Of a stretch of 64,000 nucleotides of DNA, positions 2,136 to 64,000 are shown piece by piece. Each line of letters opens with the position of its first letter. Within the stretch, counting starts at the first letter, position 1. The notes beneath the pieces were generated by a model. The model searched no databases. It was not told the origin of the DNA and was given only the letters and a program-made list of their open reading frames with translations. Location: IMG/VR virus record IMGVR_UViG_3300032753_002463, positions 1 to 64,000 of that record. The stretch is one strand, 5' to 3'. Made by a program: the position numbers and the translations under genes. This DNA is from a virus.

Positions 2136-2137
2136 AA

Positions 2138-9109: not shown

Positions 9110-9116
9110 CAGTTTT

Positions 9117-9128: not shown

Positions 9129-9136
9129 CCAAAATA

Positions 9137-35610: not shown

Positions 35611-35671
35611 AAAGCCCGGCAGAAATAATGATAGCGAAATTAGATCGTCATTATTTCTGCCGGGCTTTTTT
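35611..35671. terminator. bidirectional rho-independent terminator
   Basis: A perfect 21-bp inverted repeat (35611-35631 with 35648-35668; ends AAAGCCCGGC / GCCGGGCTTT) has a 16-base loop. A T run follows on the plus strand (35666-35671), and TTTTCTAATTT follows on the minus strand. It separates convergent genes, phoH on the plus strand and the 2530-residue gene on the minus strand. The latter's TAA lies inside the T run. Confidence 0.92.
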
Positions 35672-41600: not shown

Positions 41601-43262
41601 AATGGAAAAATAAAATCCTTCTCCTGTAATATCAATTATTTTTGCTGTTACTGGTAAATAAGTAGTTAATAGTTTTTGTTTTAATGCGAATAATTTAATC
41701 AAGACCTCTTGTGGAGAAAACAGAAAGGAATTCTGTGTAACCGGATATCCCCACTCATCTTCCTGATTTGGTATAATTTCATTAATGTCATAAAATAATC
41801 CAAATAAAGGAGTTTTTTTATAAGAGGTAGATGGAAATATTTGTTCCAATGATGATTGAATACTAAAAGTTCCGTCATCATTTGGTCCATAAACTATAAC
41901 CTGCTTATATTTTCCACTATTTTCGTCATCTAATAAATTGTTTATTAGCGTAGATTGATTATAAGGGGTAGCTTGTAAATTATCCAGAAATTTGGAATTC
42001 TGTTGGAATGCAGTTAAATTACTCGAGGAGGATTTTGTTATATTTAACCAATACTCCTTTATAGTTAAATCCTGGTATCCAAAGAAAGTTATTATATTTA
42101 CTAATCCTTTATAAGAACCTAAGTATGGAAATATTTCAGATGCCTGCAAAAGTAATTCCTTTCTTTTTCTATTTAGTATAATGTAATCAGGATATGGCTC
42201 TTCTGGATCACTATCCCTCAATATCCCTGCATCCTCCTTATTAAACTGCTGTCCTATATTTCCTAATAAAACATTCAATCTTTCATCTTCTTCAATTACT
42301 TCCCCTACTAATTCTACCCTTAGTATTGTTACTGGCAATGCTTGTGTTATATCCTCTATTATTAAGGATCTACCAATCAATGCTCCCTGGTCAGAATTAA
42401 GTGCAATATTAATACCTATGCTACTAGAGTTAATGGCCGAACTTTTTCTTACTCCATCTAATACTATATCACCAACAGCCCAAGAAGTCGGAAAATTTAT
42501 TTCCGAGAGATTCAATATAACAGGGGCATCTAATGTTGGATCATTAATAAGATTATATTGATACAATCTACTAGAAACATCATTTGCATCTTCTATTTGA
42601 TAGACGTAGCAATTTTGATTTGCCGCAGTTACCAAAAAAGATTTATTAACATTAATAGTAGTACCAACAATAGATATTATTTTAGTCTCTGCTGGAATTC
42701 CTTCCCCTGTAATATTATATCCCGGGGTAAGTAAAGATAAATCGCTAAAACTTGTCAAATAAGTATTTCCTGCTGTAAAGGACGCAATTATAGAAGGGAC
42801 TTCATCAAAATCTACTATATTATAATTAGTTTCAAATCTTGTTCTCCAAGCAGCAAAAGAAATTGGACCTGTCCCGCTAGATGTGGCATTACCTGATAAA
42901 GTTGCTATGTTATCATTTATACCTAATATAGTTCCAGTAAAATAAGCTGAAAATATATAAGATCCTATTAGGTCACTACTTAAATCACCGGAAAGCGTAA
43001 CAGTATTAGTAGAAATAACAAAAGTCCCAATTATTCCCATTGGATTTCCATAAACACCCGGGGTATCCGAATGAGGCAATCCATAAGTATAATTAGAATT
43101 TATATCTCTTAACTTTTCAACAGCAAAAATATGCTCAACCTCAAATAGGTCTACAGATACCTGTGGTAATAGTATTCTTCCTTCCCAGAATGTTCCATTC
43201 CAAGAAAAATTATGCTGATTTCCACTTTTGTTAAAGAATAATATATTTTGATAAGTACTCAT
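35670..43262 (-). CDS. giant baseplate-wedge/adhesin fusion (2530 aa), gp7-like N-terminal region
   Basis: This 2530-residue protein is a mosaic. Residues about 344-404 contain NRKRKELLLQASEIFPYLGS then GLVNIITFFGYQDLTIKEYW, which resembles P2 gpI / T4 gp7 wedge proteins. A position two genes after gp6 supports that. Later domains include a discoidin (F5/8 type C) fold at about 1330-1460 (EWIQLDLNQPMPITSVVIG, YSLDGINWILL, ARYIKISSPG). A regulator-type beta propeller follows at about 1480-1750 (LWIATGNGISLYD, KWIGTDSGITYYDG). SBBP-like propeller repeats occupy about 1950-2365 (DGYIYVTGYF, NVYVVGY, NLYIAGEF). A PKD-like domain lies near 2420-2505. Discoidin and propeller domains often bind glycans or proteins, so this may join wedge and receptor-binding roles. 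Functional conclusions are inference. Confidence 0.75.
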   Translation of the reverse strand: MSTYQNILFFNKSGNQHNFSWNGTFWEGRILLPQVSVDLFEVEHIFAVEKLRDINSNYTYGLPHSDTPGVYGNPMGIIGTFVISTNTVTLSGDLSSDLIGSYIFSAYFTGTILGINDNIATLSGNATSSGTGPISFAAWRTRFETNYNIVDFDEVPSIIASFTAGNTYLTSFSDLSLLTPGYNITGEGIPAETKIISIVGTTINVNKSFLVTAANQNCYVYQIEDANDVSSRLYQYNLINDPTLDAPVILNLSEINFPTSWAVGDIVLDGVRKSSAINSSSIGINIALNSDQGALIGRSLIIEDITQALPVTILRVELVGEVIEEDERLNVLLGNIGQQFNKEDAGILRDSDPEEPYPDYIILNRKRKELLLQASEIFPYLGSYKGLVNIITFFGYQDLTIKEYWLNITKSSSSNLTAFQQNSKFLDNLQATPYNQSTLINNLLDDENSGKYKQVIVYGPNDDGTFSIQSSLEQIFPSTSYKKTPLFGLFYDINEIIPNQEDEWGYPVTQNSFLFSPQEVLIKLFALKQKLLTTYLPVTAKIIDITGEGFYFSINKPRGWIDTLKIDEISLGLDITISASPQSGYVEDLRAFQTRSNSSLPQLPFVPGYEGNTDSSDFGNTVDLNPYSQSYTPEEASSIADAIIAYHTDLINNNGKFDLGDGDYNGPGYIRYQDNTPYYLPGGFPTVLEVSCFNITMDDVSTTWDNLDTNISTYDTTLSSSADLPAYTGIPLITSNLSFPIQVDSDFLTPLTVTLPVGLTGLLNPLGGKVQLQFMADSNDYFVGEVQSYNNVTGITNLLFLYYVGSGEFTEWNVSITNIFSQRIAMTYYNYTQGSDGLYSWDNLRFVGYYEIEWTISKVGDNPYNYQFRGNLKDYWRIPQILPYIGNYTVKCKIWNSFNDTSTGYFIDYITVEPRNIELTSIARFRQAEIYTWDQMIETWDDYDCQWQFPIEQQNPQPQTSQINLTYSEYGNHYYDGQECNVLTPIPEIKANLNFNLGVVSHQIISISSLYGVGFGPATVTTADAHGISPGDSVFIKDNSTNSITGEYSVLSVTATTFIIPLIIYNTITTVGNYVTGGGSLNISISERSYINVDYDGSIGSTAGTLYSLMNGGTLDPQFTIMNYTPTTVAGISSNVFLYNIIMESPDNTGSAYNGQVINITTTGSLVLNIGDTVLTNSITPALAGGANQTENYIYYSPGDPLPISEMKNWGSKEINWDSFTDISWDQLYSQTWSMYDFHGDWNGGFDLYNIRYGDTIKVGKNNPGVLIGTSTSPGYPMFLYDVANQLNQSQDPGISKFNYQVRGYSRVYGSYDSLGNNLIEDIIAPHITYTQSSVYSGYVAADYTSMTNGSYRELNQTVTSNSSNEWIQLDLNQPMPITSVVIGCDFSSSMTGSWGPTFTQNKSVSYSLDGINWILLFNTGTFTQGIEEFIVNVTARYIKISSPGAHLVVTEFYAMIPFSTGLGPMDEITTTYGSLGFNPTSICRGLYGEIYMADGNNIHVFKSPTNIDLITLSYPGTYLQIDRKGNLWYYGQGAVPLQIIDTNNINNITAFVSETGSITTNSNNIIIPYHFTTANITALAIDDRNRDFAISITFDHATNWLLYYDGDSQEFEIHNTSDGLLSTDIRQMIFDYKDGNKILWIATGNGISLYDRIKFFNYQTNNSGLLSNNVYSICIDEINNKWIGTDSGITYYDGDIWAVWNPGNSAGLLSGEVYSNIITVGHGNIFFTISNGTNYFLGYFNGDDFIRYTNEPGNSVTFAPYLNPGSPASLHRENTWILVNKVKTIDGAYTQYPGNIFYLSSTQALKQIDYVIPHIQATSNFPGNDGWDFIYYNSSRSLPSIELSSPSGIAYGLINFNFLVGPVNGNYILADNFRPNFPFVDGYSWKVPDWAGFDFSQITKNHPELNPDHLFLDAPLRDILNGSAIKEEYWRNSPIERSADKKARDQFSDFEWLISIGDNYQDRGIKIVVGDDGYIYVTGYFQGTIYFGSPNNINSGSTTTINSPNCISVFVAKYNSVGIIQWVRMYGEPNPPYGEDFIPSSIKLDRLGNVYVVGYKQKNGNNLSSEQPSNFLIRWDWNGTFIGFTELFTPSASTTYNENIDIVVDDANNLYIAGEFNGTLTSGVWSITSSYGPSLNEIYIANVDSNGNVIYLRKIESGKPEYSPSLALGNYNDLYIAYYNKDINGQNILLSSYNSLTFTSNWTNIISNTDFIRTSLSPIIKLSTNGELVLGVSFNGTLTLNKTSISCPDSLEYGIFKFLTTGNFIFAKNVGSSLGDCLHDIDIDSEGRIYMLGSYTGSFSPDNNYQPFHENSVGASDVLLIKLEIDGTIIDITTIGSISADEGLSISLDTEENIYLTGYLSGSIITGDLLISPNPTGNNNLFVGKIPHQSYIPGKSFAGPVSWLGTQSWGYSDKRIYKGEFEIPIGTPVFINPLDSNIPGKKNHEWQLIEQSTGNVIVDVKDVPYFIWTFTVPGYFDLVITIEDTNGNIYTTTKNAYIRVVDHSAIFNGETVPHIINSNDFRDQAIYPY

Positions 43263-43534: not shown

Positions 43535-45250
43535 TTAAGAGGATTTTATAGATGCCTTATTAATAGCGTTTATTTGCGTGTTATAAGTCACGGGCGTTAC
43601 GCTAGATATTTCAATGTTAACTGAAGAAAGCTTCGTTAAATCAGCTCCTACGTCATAATACACGCCGTTACTGTCACTCCAGCCTCCCGAGATTATTATA
43701 ATTTCATTTTGATCTATAACTATATCACCAAAAGAATTTAATCCCTGTAAAACGCTCCTCCTTGGATCAGTTTCTGGTAAATTAGCTACGGAAAGTTGAT
43801 AATTTTCATTCTTCTGCGAAACAAAGAAAATCATTACCGAATCAACACCAGGAATAGATTCTACTAATGCAATCAAATCAGACCTTGGTATTATATCCCT
43901 TCTTCTAATAGAAAGGAAATATTGGCTATAAGTGTCTATGATAGTGTTCATTATTGTATCTGGATCATATCCTTCAAAAATAGTAATAATAGTATTTATT
44001 ACATATAATGAGGTAATAGGATCTACTATCTGTACTTCGGTACCTACAATCTTTTGACCACTCATTTCTATTACATTTAATATCGAGCTTTTTTGATAAT
44101 CAGTGAGTGTAAAATCACTCACCTGAAGATTAAAGTAATTCTCGTTAGTAGTTAGTAATTGAGTAACATCTGGTACGAGTAAAACATAAATAATACTTTG
44201 ATCGTCAATATAAACACTATTAACATTATTATATGCTTCTATAATAGAGAATGTCCCATATTTTTCAAAAAAAATAATATAGCTATCTGGATTTGCTAAA
44301 ACATAGGATCTTGATGTTTTAGGAGCTAGTATTCTTGTTAAAGCAACATTTTCCTGATTTGATCCTAATTGCGGTGGGATAACACAAGAAACATTTAGAT
44401 AATCTTTTAATGTAATAGAATTACCAAATATATCTATTCCCGTGTCATTAAACTCGAAATTAATCTTTGTCGGATCTGCGTTAATATTACCAGCTAATCC
44501 CAGAGTTTCTAAATATTGCACGGTAATTGTAGCCCCGTTTATTGGCATAGTTCCATTATTTCCATTTCCAAAAATAATATCTATTCCTTGGTTAATAGAG
44601 GTCCTCACTAGGACCCCATTATAATTATATGGTATATCATATAACGAATCATAAGTTTGATAAAGAACATCATTAACATAAACATAAACTTCTGAATTTT
44701 CAATGGATCCTGTATATCTTTCTGCTACATTATATGTTTGTAAAGGCAAGCCAGTACCAGTAAATCCTGCTGTCTTTACAATGCCCTGTATTATCTGGGC
44801 ATTATAGCTAGAACTGCCGCTTAAATTAAATCTTATAGTATCCTGTGTTAACATTAGTACATATTGAGATCCACTATCTGTAAATTGTATAACTGCCTTA
44901 TTTGGAATTAATATTGCATTTCCCCCAACATCAGTAGTATCTGCATTATTCCAGGTTATTTGCACTTCTCCCATTGCAGAACCAGCTCTTGTTGCAAAAT
45001 GTCCTACACTAGCTGCTATTCCATAAATGGAGGATTCCCTTGTAGCAGTATTAATATTTAATTCAGTAATAGAGTCCTCTATAAAAAAAAGAATAAATTG
45101 AACCAAATTTTGTAACACAAAGATAATTTGTCCCCAAACAGAAGCAACAGTAAACATTTGGCTACTTTGAGAATATCGATCCTGTACTATTTGCATTGTC
45201 TGAGCAAGCAGAGATTCTATTTTAGCCTGACTTTTATTAAATAAATCCAT
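43535..45250 (-). CDS. 6: baseplate wedge protein, gp6/Baseplate J-like
   Basis: This 571-residue protein resembles T4 gp6 (660) and the Baseplate J family. The long helical N-terminus (SQAKIESLLAQTMQIVQDRY) is followed by the typical SITELNINTATRESSIYGIA. A beta domain with IPNKAVIQFTDSG comes next. The C-terminal section (RRRDIIPRSDLIALVESIPG, VDSVMIFFVSQKN) is characteristic of gpJ-like proteins, which join neighbouring wedges into the ring. It follows gp25 by two bases, the order seen in many contractile tails (gp25, gp6/J, gp7/I). Confidence 0.85.
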   Translation of the reverse strand: MDLFNKSQAKIESLLAQTMQIVQDRYSQSSQMFTVASVWGQIIFVLQNLVQFILFFIEDSITELNINTATRESSIYGIAASVGHFATRAGSAMGEVQITWNNADTTDVGGNAILIPNKAVIQFTDSGSQYVLMLTQDTIRFNLSGSSSYNAQIIQGIVKTAGFTGTGLPLQTYNVAERYTGSIENSEVYVYVNDVLYQTYDSLYDIPYNYNGVLVRTSINQGIDIIFGNGNNGTMPINGATITVQYLETLGLAGNINADPTKINFEFNDTGIDIFGNSITLKDYLNVSCVIPPQLGSNQENVALTRILAPKTSRSYVLANPDSYIIFFEKYGTFSIIEAYNNVNSVYIDDQSIIYVLLVPDVTQLLTTNENYFNLQVSDFTLTDYQKSSILNVIEMSGQKIVGTEVQIVDPITSLYVINTIITIFEGYDPDTIMNTIIDTYSQYFLSIRRRDIIPRSDLIALVESIPGVDSVMIFFVSQKNENYQLSVANLPETDPRRSVLQGLNSFGDIVIDQNEIIIISGGWSDSNGVYYDVGADLTKLSSVNIEISSVTPVTYNTQINAINKASIKSS

Positions 45251-45252: not shown

Positions 45253-45630
45253 TTATAACACTTTTATTCCCAAAACAGGGTTATTTCCTATAGCAAATTC
45301 TATTACACATGTATCCCTAGCAACACCTTGGTAAAATCCTATTTTAAAGTTCACATCTAATAAATCTCGGGATGGAGGACAATATGTATATAATTGTAGA
45401 GCAATTGCTTGTTGTAATTCGGCCTGGGACACATCAAAATCAAATAACAAAGATTCTAGATTAACCCCAAAATTTGGATCCCCTAATACTTCTCCTGGAC
45501 TAGTAAGCATTATCTGCTTTATCATACCAATCGTAATTTCTAATATATCACTGGTTTCCATTTTCCCTGTAATGTAATAGGGGTCATCAGGAGTTCTAGG
45601 ATATATTTCTGCAAATCTAGACATATACAT
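45253..45630 (-). CDS. 25: baseplate wedge protein gp25
   Basis: This protein is about 125 residues long, the family's usual size, with a gp25/gpW lysozyme-like fold. Its signature is GEVLGDPNFGVNLESLLFDF, followed by a helix (AELQQAIALQLYTYCPPSRD) and an amphipathic C-terminal strand. In T4 gp25 joins the wedge core and helps start sheath assembly. Two starts are possible, ATG at 45628-45630 or the second ATG at 45622-45624. The AATATATAATG sequence just upstream does not settle it. This gene opens the wedge cluster gp25-gp6-gp7-like, transcribed leftward from about 45.65 kb. Confidence 0.88.
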   Translation of the reverse strand: MYMSRFAEIYPRTPDDPYYITGKMETSDILEITIGMIKQIMLTSPGEVLGDPNFGVNLESLLFDFDVSQAELQQAIALQLYTYCPPSRDLLDVNFKIGFYQGVARDTCVIEFAIGNNPVLGIKVL

Positions 45631-46095: not shown

Positions 46096-46866
46096 TTAGT
46101 TCCACTGTACTATATAGTAAGGAGTATTTTCATCATTAATCATTTTCATTACCTCGTCTAATTCTGCTTGGCCAACAGTTGTAATAGCCGCAGTGTTAAT
46201 AGTAATTCCACCAGGTAATGTATAGCCAAAAGTTCCTAACAATCTACCGATGTTTATTTTTGCTTTTGCAAGTACATACCTCACGAATAATTCATCAGAA
46301 TAAAGATTTTCATCAGGAATAGCAATACCCGCTTTAATAACGACATCACAATTATCCCCCGTTAAACCATTAATATTTGCAGACCCGGGGTCTCTACCTA
46401 ATATTGTAAGTAATTTGGTATTTTTATTATATCCATAGGCATATGTTTCTAATAAATATGCTTTCGCTAAATCAAAAAATGAGTATAAAACAGTTCTGTA
46501 AACCAAATTATCACCAACAAATGGGCTTAACATTAATTCAGATCCTAATAATTTAGAATCTCCAAAGTCCTTATCAGGAGTACCAGTCAACCCAGATCCA
46601 TCTACTTGTCTTACTTCATAAACACCAATAACACAATCTGGTAATTGTACAGAACGAGTTGCAAGGAATTGAGGATGTCCAAATAATTCATTTTTTAAAA
46701 CTAAAAATCTATCTTCTACTGCGTATTGATAATTATCCAAAAACCAAGCCCTTGCCCTTTTGATTATACGCTTGATCTCCTGGTCATTTAAGGAGTAAGG
46801 AAGCGCGCAACTGTGGCTGATATCGTCCTTAACTTCCTGAATCAAATTATCGAGTGTTGTTATCAT
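46096..46866 (-). CDS. virion structural protein, probable neck/connector or tail component
   Basis: This 256-residue protein begins MITTLDNLIQEVKDDISHSC. An N-terminal helical segment (NDQEIKRIIKRARAWFLDNY) is followed by beta-rich parts. A C-terminal helical section (YVLAKAKINIGRLLGTFGYT) leads into LPGGITINTAA and a final strand (PYYIVQWN). I recall this pattern from neck or connector proteins in other phages but cannot name the T4 counterpart. Its ATG overlaps the stop of the GIY-YIG gene (ATGA), so its translation depends on that gene. Confidence 0.55.
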   Translation of the reverse strand: MITTLDNLIQEVKDDISHSCALPYSLNDQEIKRIIKRARAWFLDNYQYAVEDRFLVLKNELFGHPQFLATRSVQLPDCVIGVYEVRQVDGSGLTGTPDKDFGDSKLLGSELMLSPFVGDNLVYRTVLYSFFDLAKAYLLETYAYGYNKNTKLLTILGRDPGSANINGLTGDNCDVVIKAGIAIPDENLYSDELFVRYVLAKAKINIGRLLGTFGYTLPGGITINTAAITTVGQAELDEVMKMINDENTPYYIVQWN

Positions 46867-47525
46867 ATTATAGTATTTTTATTTTTCATTGATATGGAAA
46901 TTTTTTCTTTAGTGGATTCACTTAATTTTTTACCTTTCCCATTTCCTTTTTGTGCTAATGACATATTTTTACGTGCTTCTAAAGTTCTCTTTTTACCTAG
47001 ATGTGATAAACCGATTTTATTTTTATGCTCTGCTGTTAATTTTAAACCGGTCCTATCTAAACATTTTTGCTTGCAAATCTCTTTATTTAAACTAGATATA
47101 GTATTTCCTTTATTACCTACGGAGATCTTGGTTTTATGCTCATCTGATAATCTTCTACCTAAATTTTTACCTTTTGATGCAATAGACATCCTTAATTTAC
47201 TTTCTTCTGAATGCCGATGTGATCCATATGGATTAGTAGGCCTAATATTATATCCATATGGATCTTTATGCGCATATAATAGATTAGCCCAATAATGTTC
47301 TTCACTATTTAGATATAATTCTTCACATTCTATTAATAATTCATGAATGAAATTATCCTCTCCATACTTATTCCATGAATTTTGCAATTTTATGTTTCTA
47401 TGCTTACCTTTTCTTAAACTTATTAGATGTGTTTTCCATCTATAATGGATATCAATAGCTTGGCCTAAATAAATTTTACCGTTTATTTTATTAGTTATTG
47501 TATAAATTCCACAAATCTTTTCCAT
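46863..47525 (-). CDS. GIY-YIG homing endonuclease with NUMOD3 repeats (second copy)
   Basis: This 220-residue free-standing homing endonuclease has the signature halves at the N-terminus (CGIYTITN, then KIYLGQA), and a conserved Arg follows in YRWKTHL. A Glu-rich helix (LNSEEHYWANLL) supplies a catalytic Glu. The C-terminal half has at least four NUMOD3-type DNA-binding repeats of the form H-S/T-E-E...R/K-x-x-I/M-S-x-A-x-K-G (RHSEESKLRMSIASKGKN, LSDEHKTKISVGNKG, LTAEHKNKIGLSHLGKK, LSESTKEKISISMKNKN). It lies four bases after the kinase-like gene and overlaps the next gene's start by four bases. It differs from the copy at 12166-13011 in length and repeats, so the two are not recent duplicates. 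Confidence 0.88.
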   Translation of the reverse strand: MEKICGIYTITNKINGKIYLGQAIDIHYRWKTHLISLRKGKHRNIKLQNSWNKYGEDNFIHELLIECEELYLNSEEHYWANLLYAHKDPYGYNIRPTNPYGSHRHSEESKLRMSIASKGKNLGRRLSDEHKTKISVGNKGNTISSLNKEICKQKCLDRTGLKLTAEHKNKIGLSHLGKKRTLEARKNMSLAQKGNGKGKKLSESTKEKISISMKNKNTII

Positions 47526-50085: not shown

Positions 50086-51333
50086 CTAATTATGATATTT
50101 TTCGCGAAGATGCAGTTTAGAGGATTGAAGTTCTACATCCATAATATTACATTCTATAGTTTCCCCAATCATGTAATCTTTTACTAACTTTTCTAATTCT
50201 TCCTTTTCTATTAATCCAGTAAGTCCATTATCTAATTTAACAAAAACTCCAAAATTCTTAATCTTTGTTACTGTTCCAATATAAATTGGTTCTTCGAAAT
50301 GTACACTTATACTTTCACTATTATCCCTCATTATACATACATTCTTCATTCTTTGAAGTTCTATGCTTTTTACATCGGGTTCTTTAACGGTAAGGACAAT
50401 TCTTTGTGGATTTTTTAAATCTATAACATAAAATTCTGCTCTATCTCCTGACCTATAAGGTATATTGGTAGAAAAATCTACATACTCTTCAGCTGGTATA
50501 AGACCCGTATAATATTCATCCCATTCAACAAATACTCCAGCAGAGGAAGTTCCCGTAACAGTACCAGTATATTTTTGTGTTAATGAAAGTTCTCCTACCT
50601 TTGTATGAATGATATTTTTTAGGTACTTTTTGAAGGATACGACAAAAATATCTCTTTTTTCATCATACGTTTCAACCATAACCATTATTGATTTACCAAC
50701 AAAAGAATTGAAATCAATAATCCTATTAGCAGCTGCTAAAGATCCAGGAAGAAAACATTTAATGCCAGATAAATTTACCATAAATCCACCAGGACAAAGA
50801 TCCTCTACCTTAACAAGGAATGCACTGCGTTCATCTTTAATTGCTCTTAATAGCTCGCTCTTTAATGAATTCTCATATCCTTGAGATACAGAACCATTAT
50901 AATTTCCGGACCTATCAGTAAAAACTACAACATCTAATACTGAGCCTATTTCCATAGTAATAGGAGGAAATCCTAATCTTGCTATTGCTTTTTCTTCTTT
51001 AGCAACATCAATAATAACGGATTGCCCTATTCTTGTTTCAGCAATAGCAGTATTATTCTTAATACTCCTAATTACAACCCTTAGAACCTCCTTATCTTTA
51101 AGCTCTTTGCTTCTTAGGGGGTTCTCAGAATCAAAATTTTTCTCATAATAATCCTCGTATAGATTATTTAATGTGTCAAATTCGTCTGGTTTGTACTGAG
51201 TAGAAGTATAAGCTCTACTACTTTTTCCTCTAGGACCCTTGTCATAGAAATTTTCTTCAAAATAGTCCGTGTATTTTTCATTTAACAATTCACGTACTTC
51301 TGGTTCGTAACCAGTAACTTCTTTTGTGTTCAT
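50086..51333 (-). CDS. ribosomal protein S1-like protein with repeated S1 RNA-binding domains
   Basis: This 415-residue protein has three recognisable S1 (OB-fold) domains after a polar N-terminus of about 60 residues. Their core phrases are GGFMVNLSGIKCFLPGSLA, YTGTVTGTSSAGVFVEWDEY followed by GLIPAEEY, and IYIGTVTKIKNFGVFVKLDN followed by TGLIEKEEL. A weaker unit may precede them (VLRVVIRSIKNNTAIAETR). Bacterial S1 has four to six such domains and brings mRNA to the ribosome. Bacteroidota depend on this because they lack strong Shine-Dalgarno sites. The phage copy could favour phage mRNA or bind RNA elsewhere; both are inference. No promoter was found upstream; the ATG follows AAATAAAAAGC. 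Confidence 0.8.
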   Translation of the reverse strand: MNTKEVTGYEPEVRELLNEKYTDYFEENFYDKGPRGKSSRAYTSTQYKPDEFDTLNNLYEDYYEKNFDSENPLRSKELKDKEVLRVVIRSIKNNTAIAETRIGQSVIIDVAKEEKAIARLGFPPITMEIGSVLDVVVFTDRSGNYNGSVSQGYENSLKSELLRAIKDERSAFLVKVEDLCPGGFMVNLSGIKCFLPGSLAAANRIIDFNSFVGKSIMVMVETYDEKRDIFVVSFKKYLKNIIHTKVGELSLTQKYTGTVTGTSSAGVFVEWDEYYTGLIPAEEYVDFSTNIPYRSGDRAEFYVIDLKNPQRIVLTVKEPDVKSIELQRMKNVCIMRDNSESISVHFEEPIYIGTVTKIKNFGVFVKLDNGLTGLIEKEELEKLVKDYMIGETIECNIMDVELQSSKLHLREKYHN

Positions 51334-51865: not shown

Positions 51866-52558
51866 TTAAGGATTCAAAGTATCACCAACATGTATCATAC
51901 CAGTATAAGGATCTGTAGGTAAACAATTCCATCCACCTTGAGCATTTGGTGTAACACTGCTACCGGTTGCTTTTATTTGTCCGGCCTCATTTATTGTAAT
52001 AGAAGCTTGTGGATTAACTATATCAATTTCCCCAGTGGATTTCATGTTAATAGAAGATTTAGGGTTAACTAAATTAATTTCTCCCTTTGACGTAATATTT
52101 ATTTTATCGTCATTAGTTATATTAATTGTAGAGCCTTTTGTTTCCAGCATTAGCCCTTTTTTTTGTGAATAAAAAATTTTAACAATTTCTATTCCATCAT
52201 AAATTAGACTATGAAATCCTTCATATGAATCATTAAGTTCCGCTTTTAAGCTTTGTCCGATTTCTTGTAGTCCCTTATATTCGGGGGAATAATAGTCTCC
52301 ATTATTAAATACTACTCCTACAACTGAACCCAATTGAGGTGTACTAAATCTACCACCCCCGCCATTATCCCCAAAAGAGGTATCTAGTGTTTGATATGCC
52401 CACGGGAGATCATCAACGGATAGATCGTCAAATAAGCCAAAAACATTAATCTTACAACGGCCTTTCCTTTTTGGATCATCAATATCCATCACAACACCCA
52501 AAAAATGTTGGACATCCTCAATATCAATACCAATCTCTTTACTTTTACTAGTTACCAT
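51866..52558 (-). CDS. 5: baseplate spike, gp5-like OB fold and beta-helix without lysozyme
   Basis: This 230-residue protein matches the N-terminal OB-fold of T4 gp5 / P2 gpV (HFLGVVMDIDDPKRKGRCKI, LPWAYQTL, then QLGSVVGVVFNNGDY). The C-terminal part is a repeating beta-helix of short strands (INITNDDKINITSKGEINLV). It ends with GMIHVGDTLNP, a likely tip-binding segment. T4 gp5 (575 residues) also carries a lysozyme domain between these parts. None is present here, so cell-wall cutting must come from another protein. It follows the repeat-rich tail protein by five bases. Confidence 0.88.
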   Translation of the reverse strand: MVTSKSKEIGIDIEDVQHFLGVVMDIDDPKRKGRCKINVFGLFDDLSVDDLPWAYQTLDTSFGDNGGGGRFSTPQLGSVVGVVFNNGDYYSPEYKGLQEIGQSLKAELNDSYEGFHSLIYDGIEIVKIFYSQKKGLMLETKGSTINITNDDKINITSKGEINLVNPKSSINMKSTGEIDIVNPQASITINEAGQIKATGSSVTPNAQGGWNCLPTDPYTGMIHVGDTLNP

Positions 52559-52563: not shown

Positions 52564-55344
52564 TTACTGATCTTTATTTATTATCGGATAATCCCTATTA
52601 GGCAAGCCAAGATCTTTTCCTGGGACTGTAGGATAAGCATCCTTATTTGCTCCAAAATTAGGCTCTATTTGATTAGGAGTAGAAGATATCGGATACACTC
52701 GAGAATTTATACTAGGATATGTAGAAATATTTTTTGGATAAATTTTTTCAGATGGTATATTAGTAGTAGTGGAAATATTATTATAATCATTTTCAGTGAT
52801 ATTAGAATAAACCCTAGATGGTAATCCAAAATCAGTACTATTATTAGAATAAACGTCCTCCTTAGGTACTATAGAATTAGTAATTCCCTGATCCTCGTAT
52901 TCATTATCTGAGATATTAGGATAAACCCTTCCTGGTAATCCTAAATCAATTCCTGGATCTGTTTTATATAAATCTTCTATAGGGGGATAAACTTTTCCTA
53001 TCGTATTGGTGTAATCATTCTCTTCAATATGAGGATATACTCTATCAGGAAGACCTAAATCAACCCCAGGATCTGTTTTATACAAATCTTCATTGGGTAT
53101 ATTATATACTCTTCCTGGTAAACCTAAATCACTTCCTGGATCATTTGGATATTCGTCAGCAACAATGCTTGGATAAACCCTATCAGGAAGACCTAAATCT
53201 GTACCCTCTACTGTAGGATAAACATCTTCTGAAGGTGTAGGATAAACCCTACTAGGCACGCCAAGATCACTTCCTGGATCATTTGGATATTCATCATCAA
53301 CTATATTAGGATAAACTCTCGAAGGTAAGCCAAGATCAACACCTTCAACAGTAGGATAGGTATCTTCTGAAGGTGCAGGATAAACCCTATCCGGCACACC
53401 TAAATCGGCTCCTGGAACTGTAATATAATCATCTTCTGTAATATTTGGATAAACTCTAGAAGGTAGCCCTAGATCTGTACCCTCGACTGTAGGATAAACA
53501 TCCTCTGAAGGCGCAGGATAAACCCTATCCGGCACACCAAGATCACTACCAGGGTCATTTGTATACTCGTCATCAACTATATTTGGATAAACCCTATCAG
53601 GAAGACCTAGATCAACTCCCTCGACAGTAGGATAAACATCCTCTGAAGGTGCAGGATAAACCCTATCAGGTACACCAAGAGCTGTAGCCTCATTAGAATA
53701 GTCTATATCATTAATTGTTGGATAAACTCTAGATGGTAATCCAAGGTCTGTTCCCGGGTTATTAGAATAAACATCCTCGCTAGGAGTACTATAAATCCTA
53801 TTTGGTACACCAAGAGCTGCACCTTCATTAGAATAATCAACATCACTAATACTAGGATAGACCCTAGATGGTAACCCTAATGATCCGGTAGAGGAAGGAT
53901 TATTTGTTATGGATTGTATTGCACCTGATACATTTCCTTGCCCAAGATTACTAATTCCTTGTGTTAGTGAGGATAAAAGACTACCCTGGTAAACATTACC
54001 TAATACTGCTTGTGATACGATAGGAGAATATTTTTGTATTACAGAAGATACTGAATTATTGATAAAATTATTTGCTAATTTAGCAAACAAATTACCATCA
54101 TTATTTACGCTATAATCAGTAGCTAATGTAGATCCAGCTAAATTCCAGCTGTCTGCTATTAGTATTGGAGAAAATTGGGATTGATTTTGTAATAAATCCG
54201 ATAATATGTTATATTGTAACTTCTTTTCTATTATTTTACCGACGTGAATTTTGAATCTATTATCGACAGGCTTTCTATTATCTGCATTACTTAATGTACT
54301 TGGTATATGAGCATACTCATCAAAATCAAATTCGCACTGATCTAATTGATACATGAATATGTATGGCTCCAATTTAGAAAGACTTCCATAAACACTATCC
54401 CTAGATTGCAACGGATCGCTAGCATTAGGTGGACCTGCTGGTGTGTTTAATATGCCGGATGATTGAGCAATATTCCCAACAGTTGTAGTTAGATTACTAA
54501 TAGCAGAATTACCAAATGGATTTAATACATCTGTTAAATTGCTAGTTAGATGCATATTTCTTAGCTCTGTAACAATTATCCACATTCGAAATTTTCTAAG
54601 GTTTTGTGGTATTACAGATTTAAGATTTATAGTGTCATAAGTAGCCTTTCTATATAAATCTGCCATAGCAGTTACTCTTAAATCAATTGAATCCAAACAA
54701 TTGAATGTTAAAATTCCACTCCTGGATATTTTTTCTTTCACAGAATCACCCGCATATGATCTGGACTGTGGTATTTTTAATAAAGAATCTAATCCTTCTA
54801 CTGATTGAATAAACCAGGGGCTTTTAGCATTAATACCCTGCAATATGTTTCTAAAACCAATTAAAGCATCTGCTCTATTGGAGCTAGACTGAGCAGAAGA
54901 TCCGCCGCCTGGTGCACTACCATTTTCTGCACTGGACCTCCTTTGTGTTAGATATCCTTTAGCGCTATAGAAATAAAAATTCTGGGTAACATTAGGGACT
55001 AAATTATTTTGTTTATCAGTTCCACTAATACTTACCCTGATTTGCTTAGATAATGAAAAATAATCTACACCAGCACCAATATGTGGCATGTTTATCTGAT
55101 CTGCAACACAAAGTAATGGACTTATAGGTAAAAATGTTTCTTGGTCTACAGAATTACCTGGATTTAAATCAAATAATAATCTGAATCCAAGATATGTAGG
55201 ATCCTCTTTCTGACCAGATGTAGTAGTTTGAAGTCCTGTGAGAAAATTATTCCTATCTTTATCCACACCAGTATTCAATAGACTATTACCTGGATTACCA
55301 GAAGCGGGAAAATTTTGTTGTAGTCCGTTTAGAAAGTCTGCCAT
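52564..55344 (-). CDS. tail/baseplate hub protein with about twenty 23-residue repeats
   Basis: This 926-residue protein has two parts. Residues 1 to about 400 look like a folded baseplate or tube-type domain (YLGFRLLFDLNPGNSV, SRSGILTFNCLDSIDLRV, FRMWIIVTELRNMH, YIFMYQLDQCEFDFDEYA, FKIHVGKIIEKKLQY). Residues about 488-926 are about twenty 23-residue repeats with the core DLGLPDRVYPNIVDDEY. Early copies alternate between an L-P type (with NIVDDEY) and a V-P type (with PAPSEDVYPTVEG), so the true period is 46. Copies decay toward the C-terminus. It starts one base after the gp27-like gene's stop, in the hub cluster. I know of no family with this repeat; it may be an extended, surface-exposed or host-binding arm. 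Function is inference. Confidence 0.7.
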   Translation of the reverse strand: MADFLNGLQQNFPASGNPGNSLLNTGVDKDRNNFLTGLQTTTSGQKEDPTYLGFRLLFDLNPGNSVDQETFLPISPLLCVADQINMPHIGAGVDYFSLSKQIRVSISGTDKQNNLVPNVTQNFYFYSAKGYLTQRRSSAENGSAPGGGSSAQSSSNRADALIGFRNILQGINAKSPWFIQSVEGLDSLLKIPQSRSYAGDSVKEKISRSGILTFNCLDSIDLRVTAMADLYRKATYDTINLKSVIPQNLRKFRMWIIVTELRNMHLTSNLTDVLNPFGNSAISNLTTTVGNIAQSSGILNTPAGPPNASDPLQSRDSVYGSLSKLEPYIFMYQLDQCEFDFDEYAHIPSTLSNADNRKPVDNRFKIHVGKIIEKKLQYNILSDLLQNQSQFSPILIADSWNLAGSTLATDYSVNNDGNLFAKLANNFINNSVSSVIQKYSPIVSQAVLGNVYQGSLLSSLTQGISNLGQGNVSGAIQSITNNPSSTGSLGLPSRVYPSISDVDYSNEGAALGVPNRIYSTPSEDVYSNNPGTDLGLPSRVYPTINDIDYSNEATALGVPDRVYPAPSEDVYPTVEGVDLGLPDRVYPNIVDDEYTNDPGSDLGVPDRVYPAPSEDVYPTVEGTDLGLPSRVYPNITEDDYITVPGADLGVPDRVYPAPSEDTYPTVEGVDLGLPSRVYPNIVDDEYPNDPGSDLGVPSRVYPTPSEDVYPTVEGTDLGLPDRVYPSIVADEYPNDPGSDLGLPGRVYNIPNEDLYKTDPGVDLGLPDRVYPHIEENDYTNTIGKVYPPIEDLYKTDPGIDLGLPGRVYPNISDNEYEDQGITNSIVPKEDVYSNNSTDFGLPSRVYSNITENDYNNISTTTNIPSEKIYPKNISTYPSINSRVYPISSTPNQIEPNFGANKDAYPTVPGKDLGLPNRDYPIINKDQ
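52590..53885 (-). repeat. 69-bp tandem repeat array (46-residue superrepeat)
   Basis: About 1.3 kb of the preceding gene consists of roughly twenty 69-bp units, each encoding 23 residues. Alternating units resemble each other more than their neighbours, giving a 138-bp period through most of the array. The reading frame is kept throughout. Units near the C-terminal end (52.6-53.0 kb) are degenerate, while those at 53.2-53.75 kb are the most alike. Confidence 0.85.
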
Positions 55345-55345: not shown

Positions 55346-56857
55346 TTAGCTTGTTACTGGTTCAGGTACAGAAGCAACGCCGTCGTTAATGGTCCATTGT
55401 CTTTTCCCTAGCCTTAATATTGTTTTTAGTTCTCCTCCCCTAAATTCGATTGAAGTTCCTAGTATTATATATTTACCACTTAAGAATACATTTAAAACTG
55501 TTTCACCTGCATAGGATTTTTTGTCCTGCTCTACCGGACCAATTTGCCCGGCTACATCCTTAGGTGAGGTATGTACTATTCTCACTGGAACATATTGGCC
55601 CCTATAAATCCATGGTACATAGGATCCTAATTCAATATCTATGAAAATTTTATAATTCTCCAGCTTATTTATTAGATTTTGTACTGGTGCCTGATGTATG
55701 TTTTTATGTGTATTGTCAAAATATCTAACACCCGCCCATTCCTTCTTGTATTCATCCAGATAAACACTTTCGTTTGGTCTTCCTCTTAATATGATGTCAT
55801 TATTTCCTAGTGTTTTAGGTGTTACTGATTCAATTGGATATTTAACATATTTTTCTCCTGGTGTTGGAACATCTAAATTTGCACTATAGAACTCAAGAAA
55901 AGTTTTATATCCATATTTATTAACAACATAGCCTGCACTATTAGAAACAGTATAGGATTTTATAAAAAATGGATATGTACCCCATTGTGGATCATTGGTT
56001 AAAAGTAACGGAAATTGTGCGTCACTAGTTTTTTGATTTGAATCTAATCCTCCTACTAAACCGTAGCTTGGTCCAATATTTGCTAAAATTGTATCACCTT
56101 CTGGGTCTGTTGAATCTTCCCCGAATAATTGTTTGTTAATATTAACAAATGTCAGATTATAATATGGATCAATCCACCAATCAAATGCATCCTCCTCTGA
56201 TTTCCAAGATTTGGAAACTACAGAGTCTATAAATTCTAAATTCGGTAAATTCGGATTAATCCATGTCATCTTGTCAGCTGTATTAGACTCATTGGAAGAA
56301 AATCCCAAATTAAGGTCCTTAGCAACTTTTCTTAATGTTTCCCACGATGTCATTCCACTATAGGCTTGGCAATTATGTTGGAATATTCTTGGTATCCTTA
56401 ATTGAGCTTTAACGATAAAAGTATAATAGACAGAGGATCCTTTGTAATTTTCTGGCATACCATCAATTGCCTCTGGTCCTGGACCTGTTACCTCTACTAT
56501 AGTATAGTCATGTCTTATTGGTTTATATGCTTCTGAATGGGATTTTAAATAAAGACATAAGAGATCTCCATCTTTTGGATATCCAGTAAATAAAAATTGG
56601 GTTTCATAAATTTTAAATACCACTAACAATTCGGGTAAAACAGAATTCATATCTATTTTAAGATATTCAATTGCTCTAACGGTAAATGAATTAATATTGA
56701 TGAATGGCATCAATGCTCCAATAGTCATTTCTTGCCTATCACTAGAAGCAGCTACCTTTTGCTTATCGTCTGCTTTATAAACATCAATAATACTCAATTC
56801 ATCCAAAACTATAGTAGGTGGATCATATTGTAGTATTGCTTTTTTTTCGTTAATCAT
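55346..56857 (-). CDS. 27: baseplate hub protein, gp27 / late-control-D-like
   Basis: This 503-residue protein has the layout of the hub protein that holds the spike. An N-terminal beta part is followed by a central block with AYSGMTSWETLRKVAKDLNL, a D-x-W-x-NPNLPNLEFID segment and EDAFDWWIDPYYNLTFVNIN, characteristic of gpD/gp27 proteins. The C-terminus ends with a beta barrel (YIILGTSIEFRGGELKTILR). T4 gp27 is 391 residues; this one is longer. It overlaps the LysM gene by one base and precedes the repeat-rich gene by one base. The assignment rests on pattern plus its place next to the spike gene. Confidence 0.65.
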   Translation of the reverse strand: MINEKKAILQYDPPTIVLDELSIIDVYKADDKQKVAASSDRQEMTIGALMPFININSFTVRAIEYLKIDMNSVLPELLVVFKIYETQFLFTGYPKDGDLLCLYLKSHSEAYKPIRHDYTIVEVTGPGPEAIDGMPENYKGSSVYYTFIVKAQLRIPRIFQHNCQAYSGMTSWETLRKVAKDLNLGFSSNESNTADKMTWINPNLPNLEFIDSVVSKSWKSEEDAFDWWIDPYYNLTFVNINKQLFGEDSTDPEGDTILANIGPSYGLVGGLDSNQKTSDAQFPLLLTNDPQWGTYPFFIKSYTVSNSAGYVVNKYGYKTFLEFYSANLDVPTPGEKYVKYPIESVTPKTLGNNDIILRGRPNESVYLDEYKKEWAGVRYFDNTHKNIHQAPVQNLINKLENYKIFIDIELGSYVPWIYRGQYVPVRIVHTSPKDVAGQIGPVEQDKKSYAGETVLNVFLSGKYIILGTSIEFRGGELKTILRLGKRQWTINDGVASVPEPVTS

Positions 56858-57468
56858 TATGAACTAAATAAATTTTTCTTAGCAATTATTGCTTTAGTAT
56901 TTGCAAGTGCAGTATTATTACTATTAGCTGTTCTAGAGATACCAATACTAGCACCAAAAATTAATTTTCCATTAACAACTTGGAATTGCTGATCACTAGG
57001 ACCAGCAATATTTGGTGGTAAAGGTGTTGGATTAGCAGAGGAAACATTAGTTGCATTCAAGTATGTTTGTCTTTCTGTTGATACCTGTGATATTCTACTA
57101 ACTAATTGTTGTCTAAAACTAATTCTATCTTGTGTAGCTGCTGTTGTACCTCCAGCCGCTGGTGCTGCGGCAAGTAATGAGGTCATACTATTAGTAGAAG
57201 GAATTAGTAAAATATCTCCTGCATTTAATGAAAATGGATTAGATATAGAATTTAATTTCAGCAGAAGTCCCATATTATCCTGATTACCAGTATATAATTT
57301 ACTAAATAAATCCGGCCTCATCTGAAATTCTGTTGGGCATACAGCTATATTAGAAAAAGAAACAGTACCTTGTGTTGGAGAACTAATAGAAGATGATGTA
57401 AGATCCACTATTTGTTGTCCATTTACTGTATTAATTGGTTTAACTGATAATACATCTATTGATAGCAT
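56857..57468 (-). CDS. LysM-like baseplate protein (gp53/XkdP-type)
   Basis: This 203-residue protein has a LysM-like unit around residues 48-92: PDLFSKLYTGNQDNMGLLLK, then NSISNPFSLNAGDILLIPS. In T4, gp53 uses a similar fold in the wedge. In other contractile systems a LysM protein joins hub to tube. The rest is low-complexity, with an Ala/Gly/Thr linker and a basic C-terminus. It shares one base with the hub gene and lies 13 bases from the 611-residue gene upstream. Which counterpart is right cannot be settled here. Confidence 0.6.
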   Translation of the reverse strand: MLSIDVLSVKPINTVNGQQIVDLTSSSISSPTQGTVSFSNIAVCPTEFQMRPDLFSKLYTGNQDNMGLLLKLNSISNPFSLNAGDILLIPSTNSMTSLLAAAPAAGGTTAATQDRISFRQQLVSRISQVSTERQTYLNATNVSSANPTPLPPNIAGPSDQQFQVVNGKLIFGASIGISRTANSNNTALANTKAIIAKKNLFSS

Positions 57469-61317: not shown

Positions 61318-62022
61318 TCAAGATCCCCACTTTTTAGAAAAAATATCTTGAGCTTCGTATGTAAGAGAATATAATTCCTTTTCGTTAGTAACTATTTCTT
61401 TTGTTGTTTTACCTATAATATTATTATGATGCTCTACAATAGAAGTAGTTACTATCATATGATCTATATGAAATTTTTGAAGTGTCATTGCATAATCATT
61501 ATCTGAATACCAATGAATAAAATTTTCGTCCAGGTCTCCTATTATATTATATATACTCCTTTTTTGAACAATACACCAACCAGAAATATGCTGTCTAATA
61601 ACATAACCTTTAATTAGTCCACTATTAATTTGTATACCATATTGAGGTTGGGTTTTTGGACAGATCGGACTGAATGAGAGGTAATTAGGATTATATTCAG
61701 AAGCCTGAAATATTTTCGATGCCCAATTCTTTTTAAAAATTAGATCATTGTTGCAAAGTGCAACAAATTCAGAAATACCTTTCTTCCTACCTAAATTTAG
61801 GTATTTATGATATCCATAAGATGTATCAGGTCTTATTGTTTCTATTGTCATATTTGGCTTATGATATCCTTCCCAATAAATGTCTGGCTGTGATTCGACT
61901 ACTACAACATTAAAGTTAACATCTTCCTCTGATTCACCTAAACTTATTAAACTATTAACAGTTAATTTATGGCAATTATTATTTTTTGCATAGCTTACTA
62001 TGACTACATCCATGTCTCTCAT
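61318..62022 (-). CDS. glycosyltransferase family 2-like protein
   Basis: This 234-residue GT-A-type glycosyltransferase has the N-terminal strand MDVVIVSYAKNN with the GT2 core. GYHKYLNLGRKKGISEF precedes ALCNNDLIF, where N-D replaces the usual D-x-D metal motif. SGWCIVQKRS and GDLDENFIHWYSDNDYA form the acceptor-side region, with the ED-like catalytic pair replaced by D-N-D. Such enzymes move a sugar from a nucleotide donor. The acceptor is unknown. Its ATG overlaps the KdsA stop by one base, tying it to the Kdo/GDP-sugar genes. Confidence 0.8.
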   Translation of the reverse strand: MRDMDVVIVSYAKNNNCHKLTVNSLISLGESEEDVNFNVVVVESQPDIYWEGYHKPNMTIETIRPDTSYGYHKYLNLGRKKGISEFVALCNNDLIFKKNWASKIFQASEYNPNYLSFSPICPKTQPQYGIQINSGLIKGYVIRQHISGWCIVQKRSIYNIIGDLDENFIHWYSDNDYAMTLQKFHIDHMIVTTSIVEHHNNIIGKTTKEIVTNEKELYSLTYEAQDIFSKKWGS

Positions 62023-62801
62023 TAGTCAAATTGTTTTTTTATAATTTCAGAAATAAGATAGGCTTCATTTGCCCATTTAATTCCATCATCGATGTGTAAT
62101 ATGGTCTCTTTATCCGAAAGAGACTTCTCGGGGGTAGTGTGTACCTCCATAAATATACCATCACCTCCAGATACAACTGCCTGCCTCATTAAAATTCTAG
62201 AGAGGGATTTATCTGATCCATGGGTTATTCCAGTAGATTGATTTGGTTTTTGTAAACTGTGTGTAGTATCTAAAATAACAGCGCATTGGCATGAATTCTT
62301 TAATCTTGGGATGGAAGTAGAATCTACTACTAAATCATTGTAACCAAAAGTAGTACCCCTTTCTGTAACCCAAACTGCAGAAGCCCCGGAAGATAATGCC
62401 TTTTCGACACTAAAAGCCATAGCTTCTGGACTCATAAATTGCCCTTTTTTAATATTAACTATCTTCCCTGTTTTACCAGCTGCAACAATTAGATCCGTTT
62501 GTCTACATAAAAAAGCTGGTATCTGAATAACATCAACAAAATCTAATTCTAATAGATCTTCAACCGTATGTATATCAGTACAAATTTGTAGATTATATGC
62601 TATTTTAATTTTTCTAAGAATATCTATACTTTCTTTATAAGGTAATCCGGAAAAACTTTTTATACTTGTTCTATTTGCTTTTTTAAAGCTCGCTTTAAAA
62701 TAGAAATTTATACCTAGGCTTAGATTATTTTTTAATCTTTTAGCGATAGACATTGTTATTTCTTCACTTTCTATTATACAGGGGCCTGCTATTAATTTCA
62801 T
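62022..62801 (-). CDS. kdsA: 3-deoxy-D-manno-octulosonate 8-phosphate synthase (KdsA)
   Basis: This 259-residue KdsA condenses arabinose 5-phosphate with phosphoenolpyruvate, giving Kdo 8-phosphate, a precursor of lipopolysaccharide core. Motifs seen: AGPCIIES at the N-terminus, FYFKASFKKANRTS, ICTDIH, VIQIPAFLCRQTDL, NIKKGQFMSP, ERGTTFGYNDLVVDS and DTTHSLQKPN. The early Cys (GPC) is the mark of the metal-dependent class. Length is close to the usual 270-290. It overlaps KdsD by four bases and the glycosyltransferase by one. All active-site motifs look intact. Confidence 0.92.
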   Translation of the reverse strand: MKLIAGPCIIESEEITMSIAKRLKNNLSLGINFYFKASFKKANRTSIKSFSGLPYKESIDILRKIKIAYNLQICTDIHTVEDLLELDFVDVIQIPAFLCRQTDLIVAAGKTGKIVNIKKGQFMSPEAMAFSVEKALSSGASAVWVTERGTTFGYNDLVVDSTSIPRLKNSCQCAVILDTTHSLQKPNQSTGITHGSDKSLSRILMRQAVVSGGDGIFMEVHTTPEKSLSDKETILHIDDGIKWANEAYLISEIIKKQFD

Positions 62802-63379
62802 ATTTGCGTTGATTTTTTATACAAATAACCTCCATGGTGACGTTTAGAATAATCTTCTTTAGTAAATTCTATTTTTTCCATTAATCCAACTACAATTAAA
62901 TCACATATAATTGACATACATGTTGTCGATGTTGTAGGTGTTAACCCTAAAGGGCATATTTCATCTACTGGTCCATAAATAATAGAATAGTCACAAAGGG
63001 ACTGAATTTCTGAATCTGGGGATCCCACTAAAGCGTATATTTCTATAATTGGTTGTAGTTCTTTACAGAGATGTATGAATTCAATAACCTCTCGAGTTTT
63101 TCCAGAATTTGATATTACAATAACAATATCATTTTTATCAATCATTCCTAAATCTCCGTGCTGAGCTTCTGCAGGATGAATAAAAAAAGAAGGGGTCCCA
63201 GTAGAGCTTAATGTGGTTGCAAGAGTATGAGCAATCTGTCCAGCTTTGCCCATGCCGCAAGTAACTACCTTACCGCATCTACCAGGTATGGATAAAAGCT
63301 CGACTAATTTTTCTACTTGCTCTGTTGGGATTTTCTTAATAGCTTCTATTTCCTGATATATTAATTCCTTGAAGTTCAT
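62798..63379 (-). CDS. kdsD: arabinose-5-phosphate isomerase (KdsD), SIS domain only
   Basis: This 193-residue sugar isomerase has a single SIS domain: GKVVTCGMGKAGQIAHTLA, HPAEAQHGDLGMI, ISNSGKTREVIEF, CPLGLTPTTSTTCMSIICDL and RHHGGYL, in the family order. KdsD makes arabinose 5-phosphate from ribulose 5-phosphate, the substrate of KdsA. Cellular enzymes are about 320 residues with two CBS domains. Those are absent here, as in shorter forms. Its stop overlaps the KdsA start by four bases, so these two steps are coupled. The catalytic residues appear present. Confidence 0.9.
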   Translation of the reverse strand: MNFKELIYQEIEAIKKIPTEQVEKLVELLSIPGRCGKVVTCGMGKAGQIAHTLATTLSSTGTPSFFIHPAEAQHGDLGMIDKNDIVIVISNSGKTREVIEFIHLCKELQPIIEIYALVGSPDSEIQSLCDYSIIYGPVDEICPLGLTPTTSTTCMSIICDLIVVGLMEKIEFTKEDYSKRHHGGYLYKKSTQI

Positions 63380-63425
63380 CTTTCATTATACAAATAATCG
63401 GATAAAAAGTTACAATTAAAAAAAA

Positions 63426-64000
63426 TTAGCGGACAGATTTAATGCCTTGTAATACATCCATCCAATGATCACACATTTCGTGCATCATTTCTTCAAATGT
63501 ATATACAGGTTCCCAATTTAATTGGCTTCTAATTTTAGTAGAATCTCCCCTTAGATATGGTAATTCTTCAGGACGAAGAAATTTAGAATTTTGAACGATA
63601 TAATTTTTATAATCTAATCCTAAATAAGAAAAAACAACATCACACATTTCCCTTACACTATGGGTTTCCATAGTAGAAACTACAAAATCATCAGCAACAT
63701 CATTGTTTATTATCATGTGCATTGCCCTAACGTAATCTTTGGAATGTCCCCAATCCCGATAAGAATCCATATTGCCTAATTCTAAACTAGTGGATAACCC
63801 CAATTTAATTTCACAAGCACCCTTCACAACTTTATTGGTAACAAAATTTGAACCTCTTCGCGGAGACTCATGATTAAATAAGATACCATTACATGCGTGT
63901 AAACCATATGCTCTTCTATAATGCCTAACTATATTATAGCCAAAAACCTTACTACATCCATAGGGGGATACAGGGTTCATTGGTGTTGATTCCCTTTGAA
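63426..64000 (-). CDS. gmd: GDP-mannose 4,6-dehydratase (Gmd), C-terminal part
   Basis: This is the C-terminal part of a short-chain dehydrogenase/reductase, open at the right edge. It reads ...STPMNPVSPYGCSKVFGYNI, with catalytic Tyr and Lys in S-P-Y-x-x-x-K. YGLHACNGILFNHESPRRGS and LGNMDSYRDWGHSKDYVRAM follow, both signatures of GDP-mannose dehydratases. Gmd makes GDP-4-keto-6-deoxymannose, the first step to GDP-fucose, rhamnose or related sugars. The partner reductase or epimerase is not in this window. A 46-base gap separates it from KdsD. The part visible looks intact. Confidence 0.9.
   Translation of the reverse strand, partial: QRESTPMNPVSPYGCSKVFGYNIVRHYRRAYGLHACNGILFNHESPRRGSNFVTNKVVKGACEIKLGLSTSLELGNMDSYRDWGHSKDYVRAMHMIINNDVADDFVVSTMETHSVREMCDVVFSYLGLDYKNYIVQNSKFLRPEELPYLRGDSTKIRSQLNWEPVYTFEEMMHEMCDHWMDVLQGIKSVR

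Follow-up and report, generated by a model that had tools for sequence, protein, structure and literature searches.

The gene described here lies on the minus strand of a 64,000-nucleotide (nt) stretch of viral DNA (positions 1 to 64,000 of the IMG/VR virus record IMGVR_UViG_3300032753_002463; hereafter the window) and encodes a protein of 926 amino acids (aa), the C-terminal half of which is an array of a 23-residue repeated unit. The analysis, based on sequences and on structures predicted from them, points to a disordered tail that would present a short docking motif in many copies, as a multivalent array, on a tube-initiator-like baseplate protein of a contractile-tailed phage, a reading to which we give an even chance of being right. 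The parts of the gene are the following.

52564..55344, minus strand: whole gene (926 aa), an N-terminal domain that is tail-tube-like by a weak model, followed by the C-terminal motif array
53989..55344, minus strand: conserved N-terminal domain, residues 1-452, probably of tail-tube (tube-initiator-like) fold and ending in LGNVY (alignments, AlphaFold2, VIA-align)
53989..54003, minus strand: LGNVY at the end of the domain, residues 448-452, where G449 and N450 do not vary among 23 aligned sequences
53044..53865, minus strand: regular part of the array, residues 494-767, with 22/23-residue units of two alternating types
52609..53043, minus strand: irregular part of the array, residues 768-912, with spacings of 16, 22, 38, 23, 15 and 35 and including the short form IGKVYP
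52567..52641, minus strand: intact C-terminal copy of the motif, residues 902-926, beginning DAYPTVPGKDLGLPNRDYP

The array occupies residues ~487-926 of the open reading frame (ORF) at 52564-55344 (-). Residue autocorrelation in this tail was 0.336 at lag 23 and 0.388 at lag 46, both above the maximum of 0.147 reached in 1000 shuffles (lags 5-119), which places the array far beyond chance and bears out the 23-residue period and 46-residue super-period given in a preliminary description of this DNA. At the DNA level, Tandem Repeats Finder independently reported periods of 69, 135, 138 and 276 nt at the array. The two alternating types of unit noted in that description were likewise recovered in the window, identity at variable positions being 0.28 at lag 1 vs 0.63 at lag 2. 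Its estimate of about twenty copies was slightly high, the number being 15 when profile domains above 5 bits are counted, 16 by P-x-[RK]-x-Y cores and 19 by R/K-x-Y segments. The decay that it saw towards the C-terminus holds for the irregular section after residue 767, in which the short form TIGKVYP once takes the place of the long form, but not for the end of the array, which closes with an intact copy (PTVPGKDLGLPNRDYP).

A scan with the whole protein yielded 65 loci with 46 distinct proteins. Together with loci from a four-unit-block scan (80 of 149 kept) and a diverse N-terminal-alignment scan (80 of 297 kept), the pool comprised 229 ORFs, reduced to 135 distinct relatives by merging ORFs that agree in all of their last 80 residues (plus strand only). 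Among these, 88 carry at least four units (5 to 57, median 9), four carry one and 43 none. The preliminary description had regarded relatives that keep the N-terminal domain and lack the repeats as evidence against it, and such relatives make up part of the family (43/135 without a unit, 4/135 with one); because their tails are shorter or otherwise repeated, the array appears to be the elaboration by one clade of a variable C-terminal tail. The N-terminal profile matched 61 of the 62 distinct unit-bearing ORFs from the four-unit-block scan, and the one without a match (L107) lies at the end of its contig and begins within the array; in the loci examined the repeat is thus found only on this N-terminal domain. 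One ORF per locus bears units in 47/47 cases (the window and the first 46 distinct loci), and of 13 large records (141-482 kb) 11 contain units, each at a single ORF. A scan of genome contigs gave one locus, on a 4.6-kb contig of a metagenome-assembled genome labelled Bacillota. A nucleotide search with 7.4 kb around the gene against 50,697 phage records returned nothing, and neither did tblastn with the array alone at E 1, possibly owing to the low-complexity filter.

In a quick IQ-TREE phylogeny of the N-terminal domain (midpoint root, 128 rows thinned to 94 at 88% identity) 56 unit-bearing rows form one side of a single branch, with a support of 95 in the Shimodaira-Hasegawa-like approximate likelihood ratio test (SH-aLRT), and the four one-unit rows form one side of another (SH-aLRT 98); several unit-free rows sit on long branches and their placement is unsure. 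L141, with 57 units, was placed among relatives with 8. That copy number can change, as had been suggested, is supported by a pair of genes (L001 and L002) that show 0 mismatches in 2046 aligned bases, one gap of 138 nt (46 residues, a whole super-unit) and, in the 6 kb that follow, 99.98% identity, with the reservation that in a single pair such a difference could reflect assembly collapse. Of 102 pairs of relatives at least 85% identical in the N-terminal domain, 55 are unequal in the length of the tail or the number of units; in 8 of these the difference is exactly 23, 46 or 69 residues, and in the rest it takes other values.

The consensus of the unit is RxYPxxxxDxYxxxPGxDLGxPx, 23 residues that contain LGxPxRxY. 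Across 208 distinct units D9, Y11, G16 and G20 are conserved at 89-96%; more broadly, R1, Y3, D9, Y11, P15-G16, D18-L19-G20 and P22 stand out at 78-99%, a range to which R1 and Y3 contribute partly by construction, which detracts from its weight, the units having been picked by R/K-x-Y/F at both ends. To judge the age of the copies, codons were compared in proteins with at least six units, keeping the 53 arrays, some of them near-duplicates, that contain at least five consecutive exact 23-residue units. Same-codon use at identical residues was within 0.10 of the expectation from the codon usage of the gene in 40 of these 53 (observed/expected 0.495/0.482 in L141, 0.519/0.493 in L018, 0.540/0.540 in L029 and 0.605/0.519 in the window). 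Codons are thus near random in most arrays, which indicates that these are old and that their protein sequence has been maintained; since D9, Y11, G16 and G20 remain conserved in spite of this, the unit is better explained as a motif than as a spacer. Two points tell against this argument: 13/53 arrays exceed the codon expectation by more than 0.10 and are hence recent (L074, 0.775 vs 0.398), and the expectation was derived from the same gene including the array, which makes the test lenient. Alternation of types (lag 2 above lag 1) was found in 17/53 arrays, by at least 0.08 in 14 including the window and L141, and is not general.

Shorter forms of the motif occur throughout the family. In unit-bearing tails (83 of the 85 full unit-bearing proteins) the pattern [LI]-G-x-[VIALT]-[YF] was counted 154 times, in 68/83 proteins, vs a shuffled mean of 7.1 (maximum 15), with IGRVY, IGKVY, LGRIY and IGNVY as examples. 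In the 47 tails with fewer than four units (full ORFs only), N-[IVLTAM]-[YF] occurred 115 times in the last 120 residues vs 11.9 after shuffling (maximum 25), and 32 of the 47 end in it within six residues. In four of these relatives (L157, L158, L160, L189) a single D-x-[YF]-xxxP half-unit precedes a short end of the form LGNxY/F. The other tails of this group are short, such as GGDLGNVYN in Tenacibaculum phage PTm1, or are repeated in other ways: NIF-type (L170, L173), DVDNLGNTY (L207), SLGN-type (L199) and an SLSN-type repeat of period 40 (L183); a relative of 1212 aa (L230, 4917-8552) has the same N-terminal domain and a tail of ~865 residues with period 16 (z 69.5). The structured domain itself ends in LGNxY, and a match to [LFI]GNx[YF] is present after residue 300 in 122/132 full-length relatives, some of these matches possibly lying in the tail. 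From these forms we infer a common denominator, [LI]-G, one or four residues, then x-[YF]. Against it stand the 15/47 tails with fewer than four units that do not end in N-[IVLTAM]-[YF], and the fact that the patterns were picked after viewing the tails, which are related, so that the contrasts with shuffled sequences are descriptive. Moreover, the residue before Tyr in the unit varies (V only 39% vs Q 29%, then T 11% and I 10%) and the NIF-type tails lack LG, which makes the unity of the motif forms uncertain. A bolder reading, which we put forward as a speculation that is probably wrong, is that tube initiators of many contractile phages repeat the anchor LGN[IV]Y, with which their own domain ends, in a disordered docking string that is tuned by recombination and staples successive rings or hub parts during assembly or contraction; on that speculation, different branches would have expanded the anchor into different repeats (the 23-mer RVYP...DLG, the NIF-type, the SLSN-type and the 16-mer of L230).

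The tail could instead be an entropic spacer, a flexible arm that depends little on its sequence, or an adhesin that binds a glycan or protein of the host surface. Its predicted disorder, its acidic and proline-rich composition and the differences between close relatives in copy number and in the length of the tail would all suit such an arm. We nevertheless consider it unlikely, as the core of the unit is kept though codons are near random expectation in 40/53 arrays, and related short motifs are enriched across branches with differing linkers; for an adhesin, the absence of mismatches between L001 and L002 over the 2046 bases is weak evidence against.

The preliminary description had suggested an ordered rod or solenoid, and the predictions speak for disorder instead. 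AlphaFold2 modelled four units (50 four-unit blocks aligned; alignment A2, 50 of 94 blocks) with a mean predicted local distance difference test score (pLDDT) of 43, a predicted template modelling score of 0.17 and neither helices nor strands as long as three residues, and in the full-length model pLDDT was about 25-55 across the array. With a mean hydropathy of 0.428 and a net charge of 0.112 the array plots with disordered sequences relative to the charge-hydropathy line, and the N-terminal domain with folded ones. The arrays are devoid of W and C and contain very little M or F, and in the tails of relatives insertions of many sizes separate the units. The array is accordingly predicted to be intrinsically disordered and not a rod; as a prediction for the monomer, this leaves room for order in an assembly. 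A point against disorder is that unit length is strict, 23 residues in 569/934 spacings, which exceeds the need of a loose linker. This register, the conservation of P, G, R, Y and D in the unit and the 46-residue alternation retained in some arrays would be expected of units that fold regularly, possibly only as a trimer or hexamer. We regard such a rod as rather improbable in view of the low four-unit and full-length pLDDT, the composition and the charge-hydropathy values, all predictive for the monomer, and of the variously sized insertions between units.

The protein is likely to be a tube-initiator-like baseplate component, an assignment that rests on fold and gene position together. The full-length AlphaFold2 model was built on a 34-row alignment (A1, 34 of 47 distinct proteins, that is, the window protein and 46 relatives). 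When the 448 best chains of Foldseek were re-examined with VIA-align, a comparison confined to the folds among them, the top chain was 9f4a_BQ, from the interface of baseplate cup and tail tube of Klebsiella phage KP1 (root-mean-square deviation 3.4 over 150 residues), which we infer from the entry title to be a counterpart of gp54/gp48; the rest of the 50 VIA-align rows were mostly phage tail tubes, tubes of contractile injection systems and Hcp. At E <= 0.001 Foldseek did pick out ten viral proteins, all unnamed or uncharacterised, among them one of Tenacibaculum phage pT24. Several results weigh against this assignment. The Z score of the top chain, 8.5, is barely above the 7-8 that are typical of the tool for models without a clear match; the model is weak, with a mean pLDDT of 40.8 and values of at least 50 in 170/926 residues, nearly all of which belong to core elements within residues 53-377; no PDB chain reached E <= 0.001 in Foldseek (best 0.36); and a search of PDB sequences with the family profile (A3) returned no protein of a tail at E <= 10. 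In view of the weak fold model and of the lack of a PDB tail protein that matches by sequence, the protein is called tube-initiator-like and not a proven homologue of gp54/gp48.

As to gene position, the gene lies in a baseplate cluster, which agrees with its earlier description as a tail protein. Other members of the cluster are listed here.

51866..52558, minus strand: baseplate spike or gp5-type OB-fold protein, directly downstream (PHROG hub/lysozyme matches; sub-threshold Phage_base_V)
55346..56857, minus strand: 503-aa upstream neighbour in the gp27-type hub position, named from that position (an unnamed PHROG is its only match)
56857..57468, minus strand: 203-aa upstream neighbour (sub-threshold LysM match, weak tail-sheath PHROG match)
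45253..45630, minus strand: gp25-type baseplate wedge subunit, same cluster (weak matches)
43535..45250, minus strand: baseplate wedge subunit, same cluster (PHROG)

A spike homologue lies at most 1.8 kb downstream, usually a few bases away, in 130 of 131 related loci (the rows, out of 135, with at least 900 bases of flank), MaF61 (L068) being the exception. Unit number correlated with spike length at rho 0.41 in arrays of at least five units and -0.05 in all 128, and with hub length at rho 0.52 (n=74); both comparisons are confounded by shared descent and were not used.

On the docking-motif reading, the N-terminal domain, with its probable tail-tube fold, would form a ring, presumably hexameric, between hub or spike and tail tube, in the manner of T4 gp54/gp48 or Afp7. 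The remainder of the protein, its C-terminal half, would then be a disordered string of the docking motif, [LI]-G, one or four residues, x-[YF], set inside 23-residue units, each of which may engage the same kind of binding site. A ring of subunits, with about six tails per virion, would present many copies, so that a partner in the tail or baseplate could be held by avidity, and recombination between units would set the copy number. As the structured domain closes with LGNxY, which the motif resembles, a first guess for the partner is the phage's own tube, hub or initiator ring; that no binding partner was found weighs against the proposal.

It is very unlikely that the array is a molecular ruler, an initiator tail running along or inside the growing tube whose length helps to set that of the phage tail: the probable tube-initiator position, the wide range of 5-57 units and the fact that no separate tape-measure protein was recognised in the searched ORFs of the window or in ten ORFs of a related 348 kb record would fit, but in PTm1 this domain is followed by just 38 residues of tail, L001 and L002 are otherwise identical yet 46 residues apart, L141 has 57 units vs 8 in its nearest relatives, and the tape-measure failure, which extends to PTm1, is weak evidence where a subset of ORFs was searched and the records are fragments. 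The array was also rejected as a tape-measure protein in itself, a long helical chain, its model containing one four-residue helix of low confidence. The sheath family PF04984 matched nothing in 16 records; this family is unsuitable here, because PHROG sheath models do match proteins of PTm1 and of the 348 kb record (G004).

If the docking-motif reading is true, a core ring of the contractile tail that is usually viewed as compact bears a long disordered arm with up to 57 docking motifs, kept across many uncultivated phage contigs at a copy number that varies between otherwise identical genes. The array would then offer a direct handle on contacts of the tube initiator besides those with hub and tube, and the family a natural series, with 0, 1, 5 ... 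57 copies attached to one and the same domain, in which to study the effects of multivalency.

Other genes were noted in passing. In the baseplate region, a 2530-aa protein beside the wedge genes (35670-43262 (-)) has an unnamed PHROG as its sole match, and the second gene past the spike (50086-51333 (-), 415 aa) has two Pfam matches to S1 RNA-binding domains, unexpected in a baseplate cluster. By eye, GIY-YIG homing endonuclease look-alikes were seen at 46863-47525 (-) and at 9532-10332 of L150 (record positions 64-81 kb), one of them within the structural gene cluster. Elsewhere in the window a MoxR-like AAA ATPase is paired with a DUF2201 (metallopeptidase-like/VWA) protein (3267-5934 (-)). 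From 61318-63980 into L150 runs a set of genes that by eye resemble enzymes of sugar or surface-polysaccharide metabolism: KdsA-like, a sugar isomerase, a nucleotide-sugar epimerase, several glycosyltransferases and an asparagine synthase-like protein. L150, from the same record, also encodes (13483-13950 (+)) a very acidic 155-aa protein with DTEDTADTED repeats unrelated to the array. At one end of the 348 kb relative (L237; G004 positions 2-10180) long open frames overlap on both strands; the longest, with 31% G+P, is perhaps a large low-complexity fibre gene.

The preliminary description knew of no described family with this pattern, and none was found in Pfam (none for the window protein at 0.1, none for eight relatives at 0.01), NCBIfam (none for the window protein at 0.01) and PDB sequences, where 'Cargo protein 1 gp45' at E 0.24 was treated as a chance match. 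PHROG models did match on the repeats (phrog_9588, 12051, 13633, 21566, 28304 and 32848); these were set aside as accumulated weak repeat matches, no stretch passing alone, and phrog_9588 matched 2/34 family members at E 0.01. A local likeness to resilin and elastin, such as PS-x-D-x-Y-x(3)-PG, was also rejected: resilin-, elastin- and silk-type strings obtained no unit-profile score, on a scale at which permuted resilin strings reached 5.0 bits, and just 1/78 arrays had the elastomer composition (2P+G >0.6). In word searches of a subset of the open-access literature these repeats did not turn up. The name 'hypothetical protein' is carried by the closest annotated relatives, and the docking-motif reading, if right, would suggest an annotation for this family.

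Among known systems, gp54 and gp48 of T4 resemble the window family in the probable tail-tube fold and the adjacency of the spike gene, and differ in that the window-family profile matches no PDB tail protein by sequence; they are not known to carry a repeat array. Six copies each of gp48 and gp54 form the platform for tube polymerisation (PMC3004832). BBI90627 of phage PTm1, a 'hypothetical protein', has the same N-terminal domain as the window protein and is encoded directly upstream of an annotated baseplate hub subunit and tail lysozyme; it differs in being 401 aa long, with a single short stretch ending GGDLGNVYN as its tail. In the antifeeding prophage the numbering of initiator (Afp7) and needle (Afp8), which presumably reflects gene order, parallels the order of genes in the window. 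There, six Afp7 copies sit on Afp8 and the N-terminal domain of Afp7 is tube-like; a repeat array is not mentioned in the passage on it (PMC6851490), and the likeness is one of description. Tandem repeats in the ORFs of Borgs form disordered regions that resemble short linear motifs (Schoelmerich et al. 2023, PMC9879509); they are described as recently formed, perfect and spread over many different proteins, whereas the window family keeps diverged copies in one protein. The N-terminal part would work like a known kind of protein, the tube initiator, and the new element is the motif array.

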